Of a stretch of DNA of 64,000 nt, positions 7,307-36,598 are shown piece by piece. The position numbers were made by a program, and so were the translations under genes. Origin of the DNA: Pandoraea pneumonica (GTDB lineage: Bacteria; Pseudomonadota; Gammaproteobacteria; Burkholderiales; Burkholderiaceae); assembly GCF_902459645.1 (NCBI RefSeq), contig NZ_CABPSK010000002.1, positions 310,001 through 374,000 on the forward strand, given 5' to 3'. The notes under the pieces were generated by a model, which made no database searches, was not told the DNA's origin, and was given only the letters and a program-made list of their open reading frames with translations. Every line of letters starts with the position of its first letter. The first letter of the stretch is position 1.

Positions 7307-9805
<2,499 letters not shown>

Positions 9806-26168: not shown

Positions 26169-26969
26169 ATGACTCATCTCTCGCCAACATCGACGACGCC
26201 GCAAGCCGACCGGCTGGGCTTCACCCTTTTCGGTACCGGCCCCGAGCCTGTGCTGGTCTTGCACGACTGGCTGGGCGATCACACGAACTACGACGCCCTA
26301 CTGCCGTATCTCGACGGCGATGCCTTCGCCTATGCCTTTGTCGACCTGCGCGGATACGGCCGGTCGAAGCACTTGAGCGGCGACTATTCCATCGACGAAA
26401 TCGCGCGCGATTGTCTCGACGTCGCTGATGCGCTCGGATGGCACCGGTTTCACGTGCTGGGTCACTCGATGACCGGCATGGTCACGCAGCGTCTTGCGGC
26501 CGATGCGCCCGAGCGCATCAAAAGCGCCATCGCCGTTTGTCCGATCTCTGCCGCGGGCAACCGTCTGCCGCCCGAGGCGGCGGCGTTCTTCGCCTCGACG
26601 TGTGAAAACGACGACGCGTTTCGACGTCTGGTGAAGTTCGTGACGGGGGGCTTATCGGATGTCTGGGCGAACCGGAAGCTTCAGCAGAACCGCGATGGCG
26701 TGGCACCGGTATGTCGCCCGCGTTACCTCGACATGATGGTGAACACAAACTTCGTCGATGACGTGCGCGGGCTGGCGACGCCGTTTCTGGTGATCGTGGG
26801 CGACAAGGACCCTGGGCTTGGTGTCGAGGCGATGCAGCAGACCTTTCTCGCGTGGCATCCGAACGCGCAATTGGCGGCACTACCGAATTGCGGTCATTAC
26901 CCGATGCAGGAATGTCCGCCGTACTTCGCGTTGCTGGTGGAAGACTTTCTGAGACAGCACGCAGGCTGA
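26169..26969 (+). CDS. Alpha/beta hydrolase
   Basis: A 266-residue cytoplasmic hydrolase beginning MTHLSPTSTTPQADRLGFTL. It shows the oxyanion region VLVLHDWLGDHTNY, the nucleophile elbow GHSMTG (Ser near residue 102), a likely acid Asp in VIVGDKDPGL and the catalytic His in LPNCGHYPMQE. The triad is complete. AAAAAGGAAA precedes the ATG at 26169, which fixes the start; a longer in-frame version from 26040 would run through the terminator. The lid insertion after ISAAGNRLPPEAA suggests an esterase or hydrolase of small esters, but the substrate is unknown. Confidence 0.88.
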   Translation: MTHLSPTSTTPQADRLGFTLFGTGPEPVLVLHDWLGDHTNYDALLPYLDGDAFAYAFVDLRGYGRSKHLSGDYSIDEIARDCLDVADALGWHRFHVLGHSMTGMVTQRLAADAPERIKSAIAVCPISAAGNRLPPEAAAFFASTCENDDAFRRLVKFVTGGLSDVWANRKLQQNRDGVAPVCRPRYLDMMVNTNFVDDVRGLATPFLVIVGDKDPGLGVEAMQQTFLAWHPNAQLAALPNCGHYPMQECPPYFALLVEDFLRQHAG

Positions 26970-27012
26970 TTGAACTTCAGGGGAGGAAATACGAGGGGTG
27001 CGTCGGAACTGC

Positions 27013-27097
27013 TGGTGCCCAGGGCGGGACTCGAACCCGCATGCCTTTCGGCGCTACCCCCTCAAGATAGTGCGTCTACCAATTTCGCCACCTGGGC
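27013..27097 (-). tRNA. tRNA-Leu (anticodon GAG)
   Basis: Read on the minus strand this begins GCCCAGGTGGCGAAATTGGT. The acceptor stem GCCCAGG/CCTGGGC is perfect, followed by discriminator A and an encoded CCA. The anticodon stem CTATC/GGTAG encloses TTGAGGG with anticodon GAG. A class II variable arm (TGCGCCGAAAGGCAT region) and a GGTTCGAGTCCC T-arm are present. It reads CUC and CUU leucine codons. Confidence 0.96.
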
Positions 27098-27311
27098 AGG
27101 GGAGCGCGATTGTAACGGGAAAATTTATTTTTGTGAATGCCTTCGGCATTTCACACCCACTTTCGCGTGATTCCTCCCATCCGGCGCTGAGCCGATTCAC
27201 AGACGCGTTGTGCATTCAAAAGATCACTCGGCATGTGTGCCAGATTGCCTTCTGGCCTGCATGGCCGAATCGACCTTGCGGACCTCTTCTCAAAACTGCT
27301 CGGAGGTAAAC

Positions 27312-28391
27312 GTGATCTACAACCCAACATTCGAATTCAATCCCACGCTCATGAACCAAGCCATCAAGACGATGGCGAGCGTTCTCGGCAGGGATATCAA
27401 GGTGAGCGATAACGGTCAGAACTTCGCTTACGGCATGTTTGTTGCGATGGGTAACGATGCATCTGAAGACGGCGGGGTGCGCGCGTTCTACAAGCTGATG
27501 AAAACGGTGGATAGCTTTGCCCGGTTCGACGGACTCGGTGACGATCTCCGGAAAATGTTCGCCGAAGCTGCTGGCACGAAGTTCGATCAGATCATCCACG
27601 CGCTGAATACCCTGGGCGATGTTCAGAGCCAGCATGCACCGGCGTTCGATGAACATCCGCACACGAGGTATTCCGATGCCGGTATCAGAGCCGGCGTGCG
27701 CGGTCTGACGAGCGCGGGCAGCATGGAGTTTGCGTTCGAGGCCGTCTCGCGGGATCAGGGCGACCTCGCCGTGCCTCATGCGCACAGCGCCCTTGGCCAG
27801 CATTTTCTCTACGTGACACGAGCACCGCAGGGCCTACCGGATGACGTGCCTCGTTACAGCCTGTTCGACCCGGACCGGGGCAACTTCGCGAACTTGAGCG
27901 AGGACGACGTCGTGGCACGTATCGGCGAATCTCGCTCGGCATTGACCGGATCGATTGATACGGAGATGAAGCAACAACACCCCGGGATTCAGTTCGAGGC
28001 GGTGGGCAAGCGCGACATCTCGGGACTCGCGCACGATCCGGCGGCGACGGGCCTCGTGGAAGCATTGAAGTCGGCGGTCGAAGACGTCGCGCAATTCGTG
28101 CCCCAAGGCGGTGAGTTTCTGACGACGGACAACCTGAGAGTCTTCGAGTACAAGGGCCTCACGCCACTCGATCCTGACCTTGCCGACAACTGCACGCGAG
28201 TGCCGCAAGACGATGACATTGAAGTGACGCCAAGAGTCACGGAAACGTTTGACGCGAGCTCCCCGCAGAAGGTCGATCGGCTGCTGCAAGGTTTGGGGGC
28301 TTTCGGCACACCCGACACCGGGCTCAACCAAACGGCAATCCGGTTAGATCCGGTGCCAGGGGCGCCGATGCTGCTGGCGGCTTCTAGATAA
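27312..28391 (+). CDS. Unrecognised protein flanking a type I secretion system; candidate cargo 1
   Basis: A 359-residue protein of no family I recognise. A GTG at 27312 with GGAGG five nt upstream is the best start; an ATG at 27210 would add a Cys-rich stretch without an RBS. No signal peptide, no membrane segment and no RTX nonapeptides are present. By eye it is a paralogue of the protein at 33547-34716. Shared features are an N-terminal F-x-F-x(4)-N-x-A-[IL]-K block, an AYGM block at 39-42, QH at 163-164, FDPDRG at 185-190, and a tail with KVDRLLQGLG (320-329) and TPDTG. It precedes the TolC-HlyB-HlyD genes, so it may be an exported substrate. Confidence 0.82.
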   Translation: MIYNPTFEFNPTLMNQAIKTMASVLGRDIKVSDNGQNFAYGMFVAMGNDASEDGGVRAFYKLMKTVDSFARFDGLGDDLRKMFAEAAGTKFDQIIHALNTLGDVQSQHAPAFDEHPHTRYSDAGIRAGVRGLTSAGSMEFAFEAVSRDQGDLAVPHAHSALGQHFLYVTRAPQGLPDDVPRYSLFDPDRGNFANLSEDDVVARIGESRSALTGSIDTEMKQQHPGIQFEAVGKRDISGLAHDPAATGLVEALKSAVEDVAQFVPQGGEFLTTDNLRVFEYKGLTPLDPDLADNCTRVPQDDDIEVTPRVTETFDASSPQKVDRLLQGLGAFGTPDTGLNQTAIRLDPVPGAPMLLAASR

Positions 28392-28437
28392 CGCTCTCGG
28401 CCACCTGCGCGCTGGTCATTTCACCCGACCGGCCGAT

Positions 28438-28467
28438 GCGGCGAATTCATGTGAATGAATTCGCCGC
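28438..28467. repeat. Perfect 13-bp inverted repeat before the T1SS genes
   Basis: GCGGCGAATTCAT (28438-28450) and ATGAATTCGCCGC (28455-28467) are exact reverse complements around GTGA. There is no T-tract, so this is either an RNA hairpin that stabilises or processes the message between cargo 1 and the outer-membrane gene, or an operator. It covers an alternative ATG at 28455. Confidence 0.8.
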
Positions 28468-28511
28468 TCGCTTGGCGTTCTCTTGCCCTACCCGTATCCC
28501 TTATCACCGTT

Positions 28512-29825
28512 ATGAACCGCGCCCGCTTGCTCCCACTTGCTTGCATGTGCTGTCTGATGCCACCGCAGGCAAGCGCCTTTGACCTACTCGATGCAGTACG
28601 CGCGTCTCGCGAGTACAACGCGGGGTTCGCCATCGCACGCGCCGACCTTGCGGCCAGTGGCGAGCAGTTCGACCAAGGGCTCGCGCAAATTCTGCCGCGC
28701 GTTCAGCTCGAAAGCCGATTCGATTGGGATCGCGACAGCGCCAGTCGTGGACGCGAAATCCGCAGCCAGACGCATGACATCGAGCTGCGCCAACCGCTAT
28801 TCGATGTCTCCCGCTTTGCCGGATTTCAGAAAGGACGAGAACTTGCGGCACTAGGCGTCGCCACGTTCGCTGGCAACGAACAGCAACTGATGCTCGATGC
28901 GGCACGGGCGTTCTTCGACATGCTCGTCGCGCACGACAAACTCGCCGCCGCCGAGGCAAGTCATGAGGCGCTCGAAGCGCAACTCGCGAACGTGACCGAA
29001 GAAGTCGGACTCGGTCTTTCCGCCAAGCTCGATCAAGACGAGGCACAAGCCGCCTTTGACGAGGCGCAGGCGAACGTTCTCGTTGCAGAGAGCGAATTGC
29101 TGCTCTCGAAGCGCACATTCGAGGGGATCACGGGGTTGAATCCATCCGAGATATCTGCCCGCTTTGGCGAGCGTTTTGCACAAGCCAACGCACTGGCCCC
29201 GCTCGACACTTACGTGCAAATCGCCGATGGCGACAGCAGCGACTTGCGCCAAAAAGCGCTCGAACTCGACGTGGCACGCACCAACATCGACGAAGCGGCG
29301 GGTCGCTTTTTGCCCGTGGTGGAACTCTTTGCTCGTCACCGCGAGAGCCGTAACACCCCGCTATATGCCTACAACGACCCATCGCGGCGCGACAACGTGA
29401 TCGGCGTGAACGTGACGATTCCGCTATTTGCCGGTGGCCTGCACGCCTCGCAGGTGCGTGAGGCACGACACAAGGCGGACAGCGCGCAGGCAAAACTCGA
29501 CGACGCGCGCGCCAAGGTGCGGGACAGCGTCATCAAAGCCTATCTCGGCGCGAATAGCGGCATGCAGCAGGTCCGTGCGCGTCTGGCGCAGCGGCAATCG
29601 ACGCAGAACAAGGTGGACGCGACCCGACTCGGCCGCGACGTCGGACTGCGCACGAATCTCGATCTTCTGCGCGCCCAGAAAGAGCACTTCGAAGCCCGTA
29701 CCGGGCTTGCGGAGGCGTTTCACGCCTACTACATGTCGCGCCTGCTGTTGGCCTACGCCACCGGCCACCTCGACGACGACGTGCTTGCCGACCTCAACAA
29801 CACACTGATGACTCAAGAAGGCTGA
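28512..29825 (+). CDS. TolC-like outer-membrane protein of type I secretion
   Basis: About 437 residues from MNRARLLPLACMCCLMPPQA, which gives a signal peptide cleaved after QASA. A start at 28455 would lie in the hairpin and lacks an RBS. The mature protein is rich in long helices with outer-membrane-efflux-protein repeats: LARADLAASGEQFDQGLAQILPRV-like and DNVIGVNVTIPLFAGGLHAS regions, in the usual two-fold duplicated order. It would form the channel across the outer membrane with the ABC exporter and HlyD adaptor encoded next. The stop lies 6 nt before the next start, so the genes are co-transcribed. Confidence 0.92.
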   Translation: MNRARLLPLACMCCLMPPQASAFDLLDAVRASREYNAGFAIARADLAASGEQFDQGLAQILPRVQLESRFDWDRDSASRGREIRSQTHDIELRQPLFDVSRFAGFQKGRELAALGVATFAGNEQQLMLDAARAFFDMLVAHDKLAAAEASHEALEAQLANVTEEVGLGLSAKLDQDEAQAAFDEAQANVLVAESELLLSKRTFEGITGLNPSEISARFGERFAQANALAPLDTYVQIADGDSSDLRQKALELDVARTNIDEAAGRFLPVVELFARHRESRNTPLYAYNDPSRRDNVIGVNVTIPLFAGGLHASQVREARHKADSAQAKLDDARAKVRDSVIKAYLGANSGMQQVRARLAQRQSTQNKVDATRLGRDVGLRTNLDLLRAQKEHFEARTGLAEAFHAYYMSRLLLAYATGHLDDDVLADLNNTLMTQEG

Positions 29826-29831
29826 TCCAAC

Positions 29832-32015
29832 ATGCGCCTGCCGTTGACCTCAACACTTCCGCCGATCCCCCCGGATGCTTCGGACGACACGTCTCGCGAT
29901 GCTGCACGCGACAGCGCCGTCGAGAGTGTCGTCATTCTTCTCAGCTTCTTCCGCCTGCCTGCCAACGCCGCACAGCTGCACCGCGAACTGGCTGGCGAAG
30001 AAGTCGATGCGGCACAGTTGGTTCGGTTGCTGCGCCGTCTCGGCCTGAAGTCGAGACAAGTGCGCGTGTCCCCCGAACGGCTCGAGAAGACACCGTTGCC
30101 CGCGATCGCCGTCATGCGCGACGGCACCTTCATGCTGCTCGGCAAAATTGCGGAGGGAATGGCCATCGTGCAGGACAGCCGCAGCGGGCAAGTGCTTGCG
30201 CTGCCGCTCGCCGATTTCGAGGCGAAATCCACGGGTGAACTGGTGTTGGCGACGCAGCGCGTGGCAGTGCTCGGTGCAGGCGGCAAGTTCGATATCGCGT
30301 GGTTCCTGCCAGCGTTCATGAAGTACAAGCGCCTGATCGGCGAAGTCCTGTTGATCTCGCTGTTTCTGCAACTCTTCGCGCTGATCTCACCGCTGTTCTT
30401 CCAAGTGGTGATGGACAAGGTGCTAGTGCACCAAAGCATGAGCACGCTCAAGGTGCTGGTGATCGGGCTGTTGACCGTCTCGGTGTTCGAGGTGGTCATG
30501 GGCGGCCTGCGCACGTACGTGTTCTCTCACACGGCGAACCGTATCGACGTGGAGCTCGGCGCCAAGCTGTTTCGACATCTGCTGGCGCTGCCGATTGCCT
30601 ACTTTCAATCGCGGCGTACCGGCGAGACTGTGGCGCGAATTCGCGAGCTCGACAGTATTCGCGACTTCATCACTAGCTCGGCACTGACGCTGGTCATGGA
30701 CTTGCTTTTCACGGCGGTGTTTCTCGCGATCATGTGGTTCTACAGCCCGTGGCTCACGATGATCGTGCTGATCTCGCTGCCCTGCTACGCGTTGATCGCT
30801 GTCTTCGTCACGCCGGTGTTGCGTGCACGTGTCGAAGAGAAATTTCGGCGCGGTGCCGAATCGCAATCGTTTCTCGTGGAGTCGGTGAGCGGCATTGAAA
30901 CGCTCAAATCGATGTCGGTGCAGCCGCAGGCGCAAAGCCGCTGGGAGACGCTGCTGGCGGCGTACGTGCGCGCAAGCTTTCGCACCGCGAACCTTGGCAA
31001 TATCGCGGGCCAGATGGTGCAGCTGGTCTCGAAGCTGTGCAGCGCTACGTTGCTATATATCGGCGCCACGAAAGTCATCGGCGGTGAGCTGACCGTCGGC
31101 CAATTGGTGGCATTCAACATGTTCGCCAATCATGTGACGGCACCGGTGCTGCGTCTGTCGCAACTCTGGAACGACTTCCAACAGGCGCGTATTTCCATCG
31201 ACCGGCTGGGCGACATTCTCAACAGCCCCACCGAACCGGGCTACAACCCGGGGCGCGCCATGATGGCGTCGATACAAGGGGACGTGACTTTCGACAGCGT
31301 GACGTTTCGCTACCGCCCCGACAAGCCCGAGGTGTTGCGCGGGGTAACGCTGGGCATTCAAGCGGGGCAAACGGTCGGGATCGTCGGACCGTCGGGGTCC
31401 GGCAAGAGCACGCTGACGAAGCTGGTGCAGCGCATGTATGTCCCATCGGCGGGGCGTGTGGTGATCGACGGTGTGGATCTTGCGATGGTCGACACCCACT
31501 GGCTGCGCACGCAGATCGGCGTCGTGCTCCAGGAGAATCTTCTGTTCAATCGGTCGGTGCGCGAGAACATTGCGATGGCCGACCCGGCAATGCCACTGGA
31601 GCGTGTGATCGATGCGGCGAAGTTGGCGGGTGCCCACGAGTTCATTCTCGGCATGTCGCACGGTTATGACACACCGATTGAAGAGCGCGGCGTGAATCTC
31701 TCCGGCGGCCAGCGCCAGCGTATTGCCATCGCGCGTGCTTTGGTGACGAACCCGCGCATCTTGATTCTCGACGAAGCCACCAGCGCGCTCGACTACGAGT
31801 CGGAGAGCATCATCCAACAGAACATGCGGGCGATTTGCGAAGGACGCACGGTGCTGATCATTGCGCACCGCTTGTCCACGGTGCGCCACGCGGATCGCAT
31901 CATCACCATCGAAGCCGGTGAAGTGGTCGAAGACGGCACACACGACGAGCTGGTCGCGCGCGATGGCCGCTATGCACGCTTGTGCAGAATTCAGGCCGGG
32001 GAGATGACCGCATGA
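29832..32015 (+). CDS. HlyB-like type I secretion ABC transporter with C39-like domain
   Basis: A 727-residue exporter. Residues 1-140 form a C39-peptidase-like domain without any Cys, so it cannot cleave a leader and should act as a docking domain, as in HlyB. A six-helix transmembrane domain follows (about 155-460). The nucleotide-binding domain shows GPSGSGKST (Walker A), LSGGQRQRIAIARAL (signature), ILILDEATSALD (Walker B) and AHRLSTV (H-loop). Such transporters export uncleaved proteins carrying a C-terminal signal. It overlaps hlyD by ATGA and begins 6 nt after the TolC-like gene. Confidence 0.95.
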   Translation: MRLPLTSTLPPIPPDASDDTSRDAARDSAVESVVILLSFFRLPANAAQLHRELAGEEVDAAQLVRLLRRLGLKSRQVRVSPERLEKTPLPAIAVMRDGTFMLLGKIAEGMAIVQDSRSGQVLALPLADFEAKSTGELVLATQRVAVLGAGGKFDIAWFLPAFMKYKRLIGEVLLISLFLQLFALISPLFFQVVMDKVLVHQSMSTLKVLVIGLLTVSVFEVVMGGLRTYVFSHTANRIDVELGAKLFRHLLALPIAYFQSRRTGETVARIRELDSIRDFITSSALTLVMDLLFTAVFLAIMWFYSPWLTMIVLISLPCYALIAVFVTPVLRARVEEKFRRGAESQSFLVESVSGIETLKSMSVQPQAQSRWETLLAAYVRASFRTANLGNIAGQMVQLVSKLCSATLLYIGATKVIGGELTVGQLVAFNMFANHVTAPVLRLSQLWNDFQQARISIDRLGDILNSPTEPGYNPGRAMMASIQGDVTFDSVTFRYRPDKPEVLRGVTLGIQAGQTVGIVGPSGSGKSTLTKLVQRMYVPSAGRVVIDGVDLAMVDTHWLRTQIGVVLQENLLFNRSVRENIAMADPAMPLERVIDAAKLAGAHEFILGMSHGYDTPIEERGVNLSGGQRQRIAIARALVTNPRILILDEATSALDYESESIIQQNMRAICEGRTVLIIAHRLSTVRHADRIITIEAGEVVEDGTHDELVARDGRYARLCRIQAGEMTA

Positions 32016-33400
32016 CATCCCTGCAATCAATATCGACGCGCTTCGCCACGGCGTGCAAGCGCTGCCTCACTCATTGCCGGTCGGTGCCTTCGCACGAACG
32101 AGAGTTTCTGCCCGCTGAACTGGAGATTCTCGATACCCCGGCATCCCCCGCCGGACGCAAAGTCGCCCTGTTGATCGTCGCGCTATTTTGCATCGCGCTG
32201 GTGTGGTCGATTCTCGGGCGGGTCGATATGGACGCCGTGGCGCAAGGCAAGGTCATTCCGTTGGGCGGCACGAAAGCCATTCAACCGTTCGAGATCGGCA
32301 TCGTTCGCAAGATTCTTGTCGACGACGGCCAGCAGGTGAAGAAAGGCGACTTGCTGGTGGTGCTCGACAGCGTGGAAGAACAAGTCGACCTGATGCAGTT
32401 GGAGCGGCAACTGACAACGGCGCAGCTCGATGCGGCCCAGTTGCAGGCGTTTCTCGCGACGCTGGACGGAAGCAAGTTGCCGACGGCATGGGCCTCTGGC
32501 GATTCGGTGCAGGTGTTACGGGCGCGAAGCCTGTTGGCCTCACGTCAGGCGCTGTATCACGCGAAGGTGGCGTCAGCCGCAGCGCAGCGCACGGAGGCCG
32601 AAGCGATGCTGGCCGCCAGTGCGAGCGAGATCGAGCGTCTCAAGGTGCGGCGCGAGGTGTTGGAGAACAAGGCCAGTGCGTTCAAGACGCTGCTCGAACA
32701 TAACGGCGTTGCGCGCGTGAAGTGGTTGGAGGCCGAGCAGGAGCTCGGCGAGACGGAGCAGACGTTGAACGCCGAGCGACAACGCAGCCGACAGCATCGC
32801 GCCACGATATCGCGGCTTGCGGAAGATCTGAATCAAGCGCGTGCCGAGTTTCGCCGTGAAGCGTTGACCGAGCTCACCAAAGCCAACGATCAGCTCCGCG
32901 AGGCGGAGTTGAGCATCGACAGGTACAAGCAGCGCGAACAATACCGGTTCTTGCGGGCGCCTGTGGATGGCACCGTGCAGCAGCGCACGATACATACGGT
33001 GGGCGGTGTGGTGCAGCCAGCGCAGACGCTGATGGTCGTGGTGCCACACGATGTTGCGATGGCGGTAGAGGCCAAGGTGCTCAATCAAGACGCGGGCTTC
33101 GTCAAACCGGGGCAGGACGTCACGCTGAAGATCGCGACGTACTCGTACACCAAGTACGGCACGTTGACGGGGACGGTCGAGCATGTGTCGCAGGACGCCG
33201 TCAATGACGAGAAACTTGGGCCGGTGTACATGGCGCGCATTCGGTTGCCCGCCGACTTGGTGAGTCATAGCGGCCGAACGCTGCGCCTTCAGACAGGCAT
33301 GGCCGTGACGGCCGAAATCAAAACCGACGAGCGCCGCGTCATCGACTATTTGCTTTCGCCTATCAAAGAAGTGGGATCGGAATCGTTCAAAGAAAGATAG
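32012..33400 (+). CDS. HlyD-family type I secretion periplasmic adaptor
   Basis: A 462-residue membrane-fusion protein starting MTSLQSISTRFATACKRCLT by ATGA overlap with the exporter. A short cytoplasmic N-terminus is followed by one membrane segment (VALLIVALFCIALVWSIL, about 50-70). Then come a lipoyl half-motif (IRKILVDDGQQVKKGDLL-like), a long alpha-helical hairpin (about 120-300), the second lipoyl half at FLRAPVDGTVQQRTIHTVGG and a C-terminal beta-barrel region. It bridges the ABC exporter and the TolC-like channel. The gap to the second candidate cargo gene is 146 bp. Confidence 0.94.
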   Translation: MTSLQSISTRFATACKRCLTHCRSVPSHEREFLPAELEILDTPASPAGRKVALLIVALFCIALVWSILGRVDMDAVAQGKVIPLGGTKAIQPFEIGIVRKILVDDGQQVKKGDLLVVLDSVEEQVDLMQLERQLTTAQLDAAQLQAFLATLDGSKLPTAWASGDSVQVLRARSLLASRQALYHAKVASAAAQRTEAEAMLAASASEIERLKVRREVLENKASAFKTLLEHNGVARVKWLEAEQELGETEQTLNAERQRSRQHRATISRLAEDLNQARAEFRREALTELTKANDQLREAELSIDRYKQREQYRFLRAPVDGTVQQRTIHTVGGVVQPAQTLMVVVPHDVAMAVEAKVLNQDAGFVKPGQDVTLKIATYSYTKYGTLTGTVEHVSQDAVNDEKLGPVYMARIRLPADLVSHSGRTLRLQTGMAVTAEIKTDERRVIDYLLSPIKEVGSESFKER

Positions 33401-33546
33401 GCCGATTCACAGCTTTTCGCTGGGGAAAAGTCACGGGATCGAATGGCATCGGACCACTTTCGCCGCTGCTTTGCGAAATTGAAGTCAGCCCCGCGCCCGA
33501 TGCGTCTGTCGTGGGGCGATTTCGTCAATCACCGGGAGGTAATGTC

Positions 33547-34716
33547 ATGTCCGTCGACTTCACATTCGATCAGTCGGAACTCAACGAAGCGCTCAAAGGG
33601 GCTTCGACATTCTTTGACAAGGCGCTCGACGTCGACGAGCGCGGCAGAGGGCATGCCTACGCAATGCTTTTTCAGATTGCCGAAAATCGTCAGCCGGGAA
33701 GTGGCCGAGACACGCTCGACAAGTTTGTGGGCGTCGTCAACGCACTTGAGCGGATGGCAAAACTCGATCCGACGTTTCGAGAGGCATTTGGCAATACCGC
33801 CGCTTTTAGAGACCTAAAGTTCGACTGGGCGCTCGACCTGAACAGCTTTCTTAAGAGTCAAAGCCTATTCAACGAGAGTCATGACACGCTTCCAACGCCA
33901 GCGACAGAATTTACGTCGAACAAATACGGTGTGACAGGCGTAGATATCCTGCGCGCCATGAATACGGAGAAGATGGAGGTCTCGTACGAAATGTTCAGCG
34001 CGACGACGCACTTGCCGCTGTCGTCCGGCGAACGGCGGCAGCATTCGGTATTCGTGCAGCGCACCATTTCAGACAAATATCCGTCCCGATACGAGCACAC
34101 GATTTTCGACCCCAATCGGGGGGTAATCGTCGGGCGCAGTGAAGAAGAAGCGGGTGAGTTTCTCGACGCTTCTCTGCGTCGGCTGAACGAGTCGACGATT
34201 TCGGATGCGTCGAAGGATGCGTTTTATCCCCGGTATGTGCGAGACGTTGCCGACGTGCCTCCGGAAGTATGGAACAGTCTCGAATCGGTGGTGCGCCACG
34301 TGCAGAATTTCATGGACGGTGGTGAAATTGCAGCGGATGGCCGGACTGAAACGGTCACGGCCGACACAACACTCACGCCCCGCTACACCTTCAGATTCGC
34401 AGACAACGTGCTGCATTTCACCGTCGACGTGACGCTGCATCGAAGCGGACAACCGGACGAAACGAGGTCGTACACCGACGACGCGGCATTTGCCAATTGG
34501 AAACAGTTCGACTGGCAGGTGAAAAACGATTTCCATCTGCCGGAACCCGACGATCTCCGGCGTGCCGCGTTCGACCCGGCGATTGCGGCGTCCGGCAAAC
34601 TCGACCAACTGGTGCAATCGTTGAGCGTCTCGCGCACCCCGGATGCGGGCGTCGCGACGGGTTTTCAAGAAGCCCGCCGCGTCGACGACGTGATCGCCTT
34701 AAGCTGCCAACATTAA
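33547..34716 (+). CDS. Unrecognised protein flanking a type I secretion system; candidate cargo 2
   Basis: A 389-residue protein with no recognised domain, signal peptide or RTX repeats. GGGAGGT precedes the ATG at 33547. Alignment by eye to the 27312-28391 product shows FTFDQSELNEALK against FEFNPTLMNQAIK, AYAM at 37-40, QH at 165-166, FDPNRG at 187-192 and a related tail, KLDQLVQSLS (351-360) with TPDAG. The His-to-Asp spacing (22 residues) is the same in both. Sequence in this gene looks less GC-rich than its neighbours. It follows HlyD on the same strand and ends 10 bp from a convergent chemoreceptor gene. Likely a second exported substrate; unproven. Confidence 0.82.
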   Translation: MSVDFTFDQSELNEALKGASTFFDKALDVDERGRGHAYAMLFQIAENRQPGSGRDTLDKFVGVVNALERMAKLDPTFREAFGNTAAFRDLKFDWALDLNSFLKSQSLFNESHDTLPTPATEFTSNKYGVTGVDILRAMNTEKMEVSYEMFSATTHLPLSSGERRQHSVFVQRTISDKYPSRYEHTIFDPNRGVIVGRSEEEAGEFLDASLRRLNESTISDASKDAFYPRYVRDVADVPPEVWNSLESVVRHVQNFMDGGEIAADGRTETVTADTTLTPRYTFRFADNVLHFTVDVTLHRSGQPDETRSYTDDAAFANWKQFDWQVKNDFHLPEPDDLRRAAFDPAIAASGKLDQLVQSLSVSRTPDAGVATGFQEARRVDDVIALSCQH

Positions 34717-34726
34717 GCGGCCAACG

Positions 34727-36598
34727 TCAGGCCGCCAACCGTTGCGGCGCTGCCGCCACCGGAGCGAACGTCGGCACCTGATGCGCCGCACGCGGCTCTT
34801 CTCGCAGACGGAAGCGCGCCACCGTCTCGGCCAGCATGCGGGCTTGTTCGCTGAGCATTGCGGAGGCGGCGGCAGACTCTTCCACCAACGCGGCGTTCTG
34901 CTGTGTCGCTTGATCCATCTCCGACACCGAGCGGTCGATCTGGCTGATGCCGGTGCTCTGCTCCGTCATCGCGCCGTGGATTTCGCTCACCAACCGCTGC
35001 ACGCGCGTGATGCCGTTCACGATTTCGTTCATCGTCGTGCCAGCGGCTTGCACACGTTCGGTGCCGCTCTTCACGTTCTGCACAGACGTTTCGATCAGCG
35101 CCTTAATCTCCTGCGCCGCCGCCGCGCTGCGCTGTGCCAGCGTGCGCACTTCCCCCGCCACCACGGCAAACCCACGCCCTTGTTCACCGGCGCGGGCGGC
35201 TTCCACCGCGGCGTTGAGCGCGAGGATATTCGTCTGGAACGCGATGCCGTCGATCACACTGATGATCTCCGTGATGCGCTCCGACGATTGCGTGATTGCG
35301 CCCATCGTCGTCACGGCATCGGTCACCACTTGTCCGCCGCGCACGGCAGCCGCGCTGGCGTCGTTGGCGAGACGCGTGGCGTGTTCGGCGGTATCGGCCG
35401 TCTGCTTCACGCTGGAGGTGAGCTCAGTCAGTGCCGATGACGTCTCCTGCAACGACCCGGCCGATTGCTCCGTGCGTTGCGAGAGGTCGCGGTTGCCCAT
35501 TTCAATTTCGCTCGTGGCCGAGGTCATCGACGCCACCCCCGAGCGCACATCGAGCATGACCGAACTGATCTTGTCGACGAACGCGTTGAACGACTTGGAA
35601 ATCTGCGCGACTTCGTCATGACCCTCGACATTGAGACGTTGCGTCATGTCGCCGTCGCCCGAGCCGATGGTGTCCATGGCATCGCGCACGATCGACAAGC
35701 GCTTGAAGGCGCGCGAGGTGAAGAGCGAGGCAATGGCCAGCGCGATCAGCGTGAGCACGACCAGCGTGATGATGGTGGCTGTGAGCACGTGCGTGAGACC
35801 TGCGGTCGCTTCGGCGCGATCGAGCGCCACCACGAGATACCAGTCAGTGCCCGGAATACGCTTGGCTTTGAGCAGCTTGGAGGCACCCGAGAGCGTCATT
35901 TCGACAGGCTTCGCATCGTCGCCCGTCATCCCGGCCAGCGAATCGGCGGTGAGTGTCGCGGCCACGTCGGTCGACGGCTTGAGCGAGAACTTGTTGTCCG
36001 GGTGGGCGATCACCTGACCGTCGCTTGCCACGACCAGTGCCAGGCTCGCAGGCGTGGGATGCACGGCCTTGATGATGTCTTGCACGCCGGTGAGCGCGAC
36101 CGCGCCGCTCAGGGCACCGATGGTCTGGCCATCGCGCACGAGCGGCGTGGTGAAGGCGACGTAAGGAATGCCCGTCGACGAATCGCCGTACGGCTTGGTG
36201 ACGGTCAACTTACCCGCCGCGACGGCGCTCTTGTACCAAGGACGCGCCGTGGGATCGTAATCGGGCGGCGTGGGGGCGGTCGAAAAGAAGGTCTTGTCCG
36301 ACCAGCCGACACTGGTGATCGGGAAGTCGTTCGTCTTCCCCATGAGTTTGACGAGACCGCCCGGGTCGCCTTTCTCCACGACTTGCGCGGTGGCGTTCAC
36401 GGCGGTTGCCTTGTCGGCCGACCAGCGTTCGATGGCGCTGGCATTGCCGTTGGCCACGGCCGAGAGCGTATGCGCAATGCTCGACATCATGCTGTCACGC
36501 ACGATCACATAGGTCGTGATGCCAGAGAGGATCAGGGCGCCAACCACCGTCAGGCAGGTGATCAGCAGAATCCGGGTTCGCAACGAAGTGACTTTCAT
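34727..36598 (-). CDS. Methyl-accepting chemotaxis protein with dCache sensor
   Basis: A 623-residue chemoreceptor. It has an N-terminal membrane segment (about 10-32), a periplasmic double-Cache ligand domain ([36 protein letters not shown]), a second membrane segment (about 280-305), a HAMP domain and a long cytoplasmic coiled coil. The signalling tip reads [23 protein letters not shown] (split in two), and methylation helices lie either side. No obvious CheR-binding NWETF pentapeptide is present at the C-terminus. dCache receptors often bind amino acids or organic acids directly. It stands alone, without che genes, and converges on candidate cargo 2. Confidence 0.95.

Follow-up and report, generated by a model that had tools for sequence, protein, structure and literature searches.

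The window analysed here, a 64,000-nucleotide (nt) stretch of Pandoraea pneumonica DNA, carries contiguous genes for a TolC-type outer membrane protein, an HlyB-type permease/ATPase and an HlyD-type adaptor, immediately preceded by one gene of no recognised family, A, and followed by another, B (Table 1). The best explanation of this locus, to which we give a probability of about 0.8, is a type I secretion regulon of non-RTX proteins, with exchangeable cargo genes at fixed chromosomal slots. The TolC-HlyB-HlyD set would serve a dispersed regulon of small acidic proteins, of which this genome encodes at least five, A and B among them. Each cargo gene would be a stand-alone cassette made of a control region (most have a palindrome some 124 base pairs ahead of the start, and some a common leader), a fast-changing body and a C-terminal tail, which the HlyB ATPase would read as an uncleaved signal. 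Cargo at the same site differ between sister species: upstream of the exporter, A is replaced by an unrelated body of 469 amino acids (aa).

The exporter locus and the common C-terminal tail

The exporter was surveyed in 32 genomes of the genus, including that of the window (G000). Relatives of HlyB at E≤1e-200 were found in nine of them, with 94% identity in three genomes besides G000 (G015, G016 and G022) and 53-55% in five others; across 299 family genomes, the highest identity after these was 56%, in three genomes. The four exporter genomes carry the genes at one common site, bounded by tRNA-Leu(gag) and the same chemotaxis gene. The chemotaxis protein of the window is 94.6% identical to the exporter-side copy of G016, which is itself 99% identical to the G022 copy and 98% to the G015 copy. 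This chemotaxis locus was compared in 26 genomes, 22 of which lack this exporter, some of them carrying the 53-55% type elsewhere. All 22 have a tRNA-Leu on the examined flank. Its distance from the end of the chemotaxis match is 43-282 nt in 20 genomes and about 0.9 and 0.8 kb in the remaining two, G021 and G024. As tRNA-Leu is close to the chemotaxis gene in genomes without the exporter, the block between them represents an insertion or a loss at one site.

The genes flanking the exporter vary between the four genomes. Upstream of tolC, A in G000 is replaced by a 469-aa protein, P0004, in G016, by P0009 (69% identical to P0004) in G022, and by nothing in G015; downstream of hlyD, B in G000 is replaced by P0003 in G016, and no cargo is present in G022 and G015. 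The number of flanking cargo per orthologous locus is thus two, two, one and none (G000, G016, G022 and G015). The arrangement of two paralogues bracketing one exporter, on which the preliminary description was built, therefore holds at the window locus but not in general. Between G000 and G016, HlyB is 94% identical, HlyD 84% and TolC 78%, but B and P0003 share only 28% identity.

What these divergent proteins have in common is their C-terminus, a tail of about 45 aa with a consensus of roughly [KR]LxxL[LV]QS[LM]xxF-x5-G...LA-x-x. The C-terminal 60 aa of A resemble those of P0004 and P0009 (z 8.1 and 9.8, reached by 0/1000 shuffles each), whereas the bodies are unlike (z 0.6 and 1.2). A profile of the five exporter-flanking tails, from three genomes, was run on the 32 genomes of the genus. 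New matches appeared in G015:C14 (5.0e-9), G016:C1 (6.2e-12), G022:C10 (3.0e-9) and G000:C8 (1.7e-8), and nothing better than 0.036 was found in the 28 other genomes. With a 14-tail profile on 398 family genomes, one further protein (L080, E=3.3e-4) was added; 13 of these genomes were matched at E≤0.02. Nine of the 13 lie outside the four exporter genomes, and the matches of three of these nine (G136, G339 and G141) were inspected. The resulting 15-tail profile gave 15 matches at E≤6.6e-15 in the genus, then a gap to 0.037, the best outside match being internal; as this profile contains its own finds, the result with five seeds is the telling one. Tail proteins number five in G000, four in G016, five in G022 and one in G015, and the other 28 genomes have none of such strength. 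In the ten new proteins the match ends 0-10 aa before the stop codon.

Only five of the 15 tail genes adjoin the exporter and ten lie elsewhere. The preliminary description had named relatives lying mainly away from type I secretion genes as grounds for refutation; we do not count the present finding as one because the unlinked genes were found only in genomes that carry the exporter. Its central proposal was that these non-RTX proteins form a family exported by a type I system of their own, with a conserved tail at the C-terminus as putative signal. This proposal is supported at the sequence level, both by this distribution and by the resemblance of the tail to RTX-type C-termini described below.

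A protein of 248 aa in G016 (L132:1539-2285, - strand; E=0.126, tail 0 aa from the stop) is a probable sixteenth cargo. Its leader is nearly identical to those of L080 and L064 (over 150 nt, local scores of 139 with L080 and 128 with L064), and its body is a third, different one. It was one of four weaker matches to the 15-tail profile that were inspected. Other candidates were discarded on the position of the match: the remaining three of these four, among the best in genomes lacking the exporter (G030, G025 and G026), lie 215, 215 and 382 aa from the stop, those in L066, L067, L068 and L081 lie 66 to 479 aa from it, and L069 in G022 (E=0.05) lies 16 aa from it.

Uncleaved C-terminal signals of about 60 residues are described for RTX proteins in a review (PMC3034196), and features common to type I substrates within the C-terminal 20-60 residues in a 2022 study (PMC8861453). 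We compared the cargo tail with 3787 distinct C-termini of open reading frames from the collected loci. Ranks 1-15 were the cargo themselves, and four of the next five were large RTX-type proteins: G136 (1.7e-6), G339 (2.9e-4), G011 (0.003) and G024 (0.0034), with a 90-aa frame (2.4e-4) after the first of them; no C-terminus beyond these ranks fell below 0.41. The loci of G136, G339 and G011, as well as that of the 90-aa frame, had been chosen through tail-profile matches, that of G011 being a weak one, while the G024 C-terminus was included because of its HlyB. A profile of six RTX-type tails scored 31.9 against the cargo profile, compared with 7.5 +/- 1.6 for 200 column shuffles, none of which reached it (0/200). 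The RTX-type status of the six rests on their repeats and, for four of them, on a neighbouring HlyB, rather than on experiment; the RTX frame of G028 (L022), which has no clean end, was left out of the profile. In the five genomes with an HlyB of the 53-55% type (L020-L024), very large frames with GGxGxD repeats lie nearby; in G011 and G024 their C-termini are similar to the tail of the cargo.

The exporter itself is of the type I kind, as the preliminary description had it. All three proteins exceed the NCBIfam cut-offs: 244.4 bits against 225.2 for TolC (TIGR01844), 1014.5 against 725.6 for HlyB (TIGR01846) and 386 against 208.7 for HlyD (TIGR01843). The reading frames of hlyB and hlyD overlap by 4 bases. 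Residues 1-150 of HlyB contain no cysteine, so that its C39-like domain lacks the catalytic cysteine of C39-peptidase bacteriocin exporters; this fits a non-cleaving exporter. The positions and common + strand of the five genes were confirmed, as were the GGAGG-type ribosome-binding sites that precede A and B. An Rfam scan of positions 26900-34800 returned nothing beyond the tRNA.

Table 1. Features of the exporter locus, numbered from the first nucleotide of the window.
Feature	Position	Strand	Remarks
tRNA-Leu (gag)	27013..27097	-	left boundary of variable block
Operator-like palindrome, 8/10 to TGTGA-N4-TCACA	27188..27201	+	at -124 of gene A
Gene A, 359 aa, GTG start, predicted type I secretion cargo	27312..28391	+	
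Tail of A, C-terminal 50 aa, proposed secretion signal	28239..28388	+	tail-profile E=8.4e-19
TolC-type outer membrane protein	28455..29825	+	TIGR01844 above cut-off; OEP in Pfam
HlyB-type permease/ATPase, C39-like N-terminal domain	29832..32015	+	TIGR01846; Peptidase_C39 match 25-142
HlyD-type periplasmic adaptor	32012..33400	+	TIGR01843
Gene B, paralogue of A (389 aa, predicted type I secretion cargo)	33547..34716	+	
Tail of B, C-terminal 50 aa, proposed secretion signal	34564..34713	+	tail-profile E=6.6e-15
Methyl-accepting chemotaxis protein	34727..36598	-	right boundary, outside block

Genes A and B and the bodies of the cargo

A and B had been proposed to be paralogous from an alignment by eye. 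By BLASTP they are 24% identical over 273 aa (E=1e-11), and in searches of their own genome each retrieves the other (B at 1.3e-7 with A as query, A at 5.4e-7 with B) with no further match at E≤0.001. Judged on these alignments, the two are true paralogues. The blocks noted by eye (FxF, AYxM, QH, FDP[DN]RG and the tail) are all present in the alignment. P0003 of G016 is a third member of the group, in which AYxM reads TYVM and FDP[DN]RG reads FDPDFA.

Neither A nor B matches a Pfam or NCBIfam family up to E=1, in agreement with their description as unrecognised. Whole-protein searches of genome contigs with the queries A and A1 gave 30 and 32 pattern matches and zero relatives, and B had no match in plasmids (tblastn). 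In 369 genomes of the class, A1 retrieved its own genome and one 64-position match inside a long frame (E=0.006); in 398 family genomes, B matched only in its own genome and G016; in 368 family genomes, the body profile A6 retrieved the four positive genomes and a weak match in a 2787-aa frame of G110 (E=0.0026). The predicted full model of B (pLDDT 33) was too poor to judge its fold.

We also considered whether A, B and P0003 are degenerate papain-like enzymes of the C58 (YopT-like) type, with QH and FDP as a His-Asp pair. Both motifs are invariant in the three proteins and their spacing may resemble that of C58 peptidases. However, none of the three has a Pfam match up to E=1, nor A and B an NCBIfam match, a profile search of the PDB gave only a plant transcription factor (E=0.17), and the residue at the expected cysteine position (located by eye) is Ala, Ala and Thr. 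Having neither profile support nor the cysteine, this highly improbable reading was dropped.

The 15 cargo are acidic proteins of 88-469 aa. As the preliminary description had reported for A and B, they lack signal peptides and RTX repeats: none has a strongly hydrophobic N-terminus, and GGxGxD is found 0 times in each of the 15. Cysteine is depleted, with 0.41 per 100 residues compared with 0.94 in neighbouring genes. The bodies of all but L080 and L064, with tails removed, were compared by hhalign, each E value being that of a single comparison. The only match of A is to B/P0003 (3.7e-14). Remote relatives of the L058/L059/L060 group are L062/L065, P0004/P0009, L063 and L059b (8e-5 to 3.5e-7), and the last 100 residues of the B/P0003 body also match this group (3e-5); L061 matches weakly, at 6e-4 at best. 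P0004 and P0009 (469 aa; L008:2435-3844 and L018:11756-13165) consist of an internally repeated module (3.6e-5) followed by the tail, and L080 has a body with proline-rich repeats, judged by eye to be unlike the other cargo, that ends in the same tail. The shortest, at L064:6764-7030 (+ strand, 88 aa), consists of a start and a tail with little else, and may be a remnant of a longer cargo. Family searches returned nothing better than E=0.04 for the 14 cargo run against Pfam (all but P0009) and the 12 of 15 run against NCBIfam; for ten cargo each, PHROGs gave one match (E=0.074) and PADLOC none.

Chromosomal slots and upstream regions of the cargo genes

The unlinked cargo genes occupy recurrent sites whose contents vary between genomes (names of the neighbouring genes were read by eye). 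A slot with an MFS-like gene (432 aa) on one side and a reductase-like gene on the other is occupied in all four genomes, by L061 in G000 and, in the others, by L058, by L060 and by the tandem L059 and L059b. This tandem, in G022 (L059:7065-7940 and 8078-8929, - strand), places two different bodies in one slot where the sister genomes have a single cargo. Another slot, flanked by an MFS-like gene of 413 aa and a dehydrogenase-like gene of 518 aa, is used in G022 and G016, and a third, before a porin-like gene, holds L080 in G000 and L064 in G022; judged from its upstream side, L132 probably lies at this third slot too. The slot of L063 was met in G000 only.

The regions upstream of the cargo genes were compared with those of 56 neighbouring genes, which include relatives among genomes and are thus not independent of each other. 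Among pairs of cargo with different bodies, 15/98 exceeded the 99th percentile of the scores for pairs of neighbouring genes, against an expectation of about one; this percentile was set after removal of 33 of the 1391 control pairs, which resembled orthologues. In the best pair, L080 and P0004, the similarity spans 78 columns and extends to the start codon. The palindrome TGTGA-N4-TCACA, whose consensus was derived from the same sequences as those tested, occurs at 8/10 or better upstream of 12/15 cargo, compared with 3/56 neighbours. With other spacers it is rarer: 0/15 cargo at spacer 3, 1/15 at spacer 5, and 5/15 cargo versus 2/56 neighbours at spacer 6. In 10/15 cargo, representing 6/9 body families, it lies at -127 to -121, as compared with 8/2000 shuffled upstream regions. 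In the window it is absent within one mismatch, the copy of A having two mismatches and that of B three. The half-sites of CRP sites are spaced by two more than those of TGTGA-N4-TCACA. These similarities suggest that the cargo genes are co-regulated.

Several observations weigh against the regulon as proposed, beginning with the origin of the palindrome consensus given above. The palindrome of B reaches 7/10, those of L059b and L080 reach 6/10, and the tolC genes have none at the cargo position, the 8/10 copies being at -217 in G016, -65 in G015 and -77 in G022, with none in G000. Not all tails are alike when taken in pairs: B and P0004 give z 1.7, reached by 81/1000 shuffles, and A-P0003, B-P0003 and B-P0009 give z of about 3 (17, 12 and 10 of 1000 shuffles). 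The RTX tails of G009 and G001 fall singly outside the best 40 of the 3787 C-termini, and, through the choice of loci mentioned above, 3/6 RTX tails were not drawn independently of the tail profile. G015 has an intact tolC-hlyB-hlyD set (L019:6656-11517), yet no cargo gene adjoins it and the genome has only one, at another site. Finally, the four exporter genomes form one clade (support 1.0 in a tree of the chemotaxis gene from 26 genomes), so that the co-occurrence of tail and exporter counts as one event, and the same pattern would be seen with any gene family confined to this clade.

This last point bears on an alternative explanation, which denies any link between the exporter and A and B: these would be proteins of the cytoplasm or the cell surface, the tail would serve oligomerisation or stability, and all that the genes share would be an island beside tRNA-Leu. 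Because all four genomes belong to one clade and have the block between tRNA-Leu and the chemotaxis gene, which are close to each other in other genomes too, linkage by descent could have brought them together. However, 10/15 tail genes are outside the block, at several sites, and the tail matches RTX-type C-termini, which makes this explanation improbable. What the computations show is the paralogy of A and B, the common tail and its resemblance to RTX-type C-termini, its co-occurrence with the exporter, the palindrome and the variable slots; recognition by this HlyB, secretion, co-regulation and an outward-facing, fast-evolving function of the cargo are inferred.

Role of the cargo and comparison with known systems

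Since sister species have different cargo at the same site, and the exporter evolves far more slowly than the cargo, the cargo bodies most likely act on or against a variable extracellular partner; a role outside the cell against such a partner is our best inference from the sequences. A more ambitious version, which we hold only tentatively and rate somewhat short of an even chance, is that of genome-wide cassettes in which changing bodies are swapped at a few slots between a fixed control region and a fixed tail, an effector repertoire comparable to those of type III and type VI systems.

The partner might be a competitor and the cargo antibacterial toxins or bacteriocins, as the C39-like domain of HlyB and the fast divergence of the bodies between sister species, usual for toxins, would suggest. 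However, in nine neighbourhoods of unlinked cargo, no partner gene encoding at least 80 aa recurs, and hence no candidate immunity gene of that size, the C39-like domain has no cysteine, and the family searches above (14/15 cargo in Pfam, 12/15 in NCBIfam, 10/15 in PHROGs and PADLOC) found no toxin family, the few matches having E≥0.04. We therefore consider toxins unlikely. Matrix or adhesion proteins, such as those exported by PrsDE of Rhizobium, are a better candidate, although still doubtful. One exporter, many dissimilar substrates and gene tags on several replicons correspond to the PrsDE plan (PMC2275737), and repeated body modules, such as the internal duplication of P0004/P0009 (3.6e-5), would suit such proteins; but no adhesin, cadherin-like or sugar-binding domain was recognised with Pfam or NCBIfam, and the proteins are short.

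In the usual view, a type I system consists of one exporter for one neighbouring RTX protein. If correct, the regulon described here would be a type I system whose non-RTX substrates are dispersed, co-regulated and recognisable in the sequence by their tail. It would provide natural fusions of one signal to many bodies, with which the old question of what HlyB recognises could be addressed, and it would predict an unseen secretome in some Pandoraea species. Among open-licence texts on type I secretion, secreted proteins or exporters of Pandoraea, non-RTX C-terminal signals, unlinked substrates and common tails, no title or abstract opening among those listed describes this system.

Compared with HlyA-HlyB-HlyD-TolC, the Pandoraea system has the same exporter trio, above the NCBIfam type I cut-offs, and the same C-terminal location of the (here proposed) substrate signal; it differs in that its substrates lack GGxGxD, that 10/15 are unlinked and that those tested belong to no known family. 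The RTX-type giants of Pandoraea and other Burkholderiaceae carry a C-terminal [VI]xxL[VI]xAMxxF...G motif that resembles the cargo tail, and those of G001, G009, G011 and G024 have an HlyB gene nearby whose identity to that of the window is 53-55%; they differ from the cargo in their size, about 1100 to 2800 aa, and in having 2 to 26 GGxGxD in the part examined. The nearest parallel in organisation is PrsDE of Rhizobium leguminosarum, likewise one type I exporter with many dissimilar substrates, which exports 12/14 putative type I substrates (PMC2275737). Many PrsDE substrates have recognised functions, as glycanases or cadherin-like proteins, whereas the Pandoraea cargo have no recognised domain; unlike the PrsDE substrates, most of the Pandoraea cargo have a common upstream palindrome and all of them a recognisable tail.

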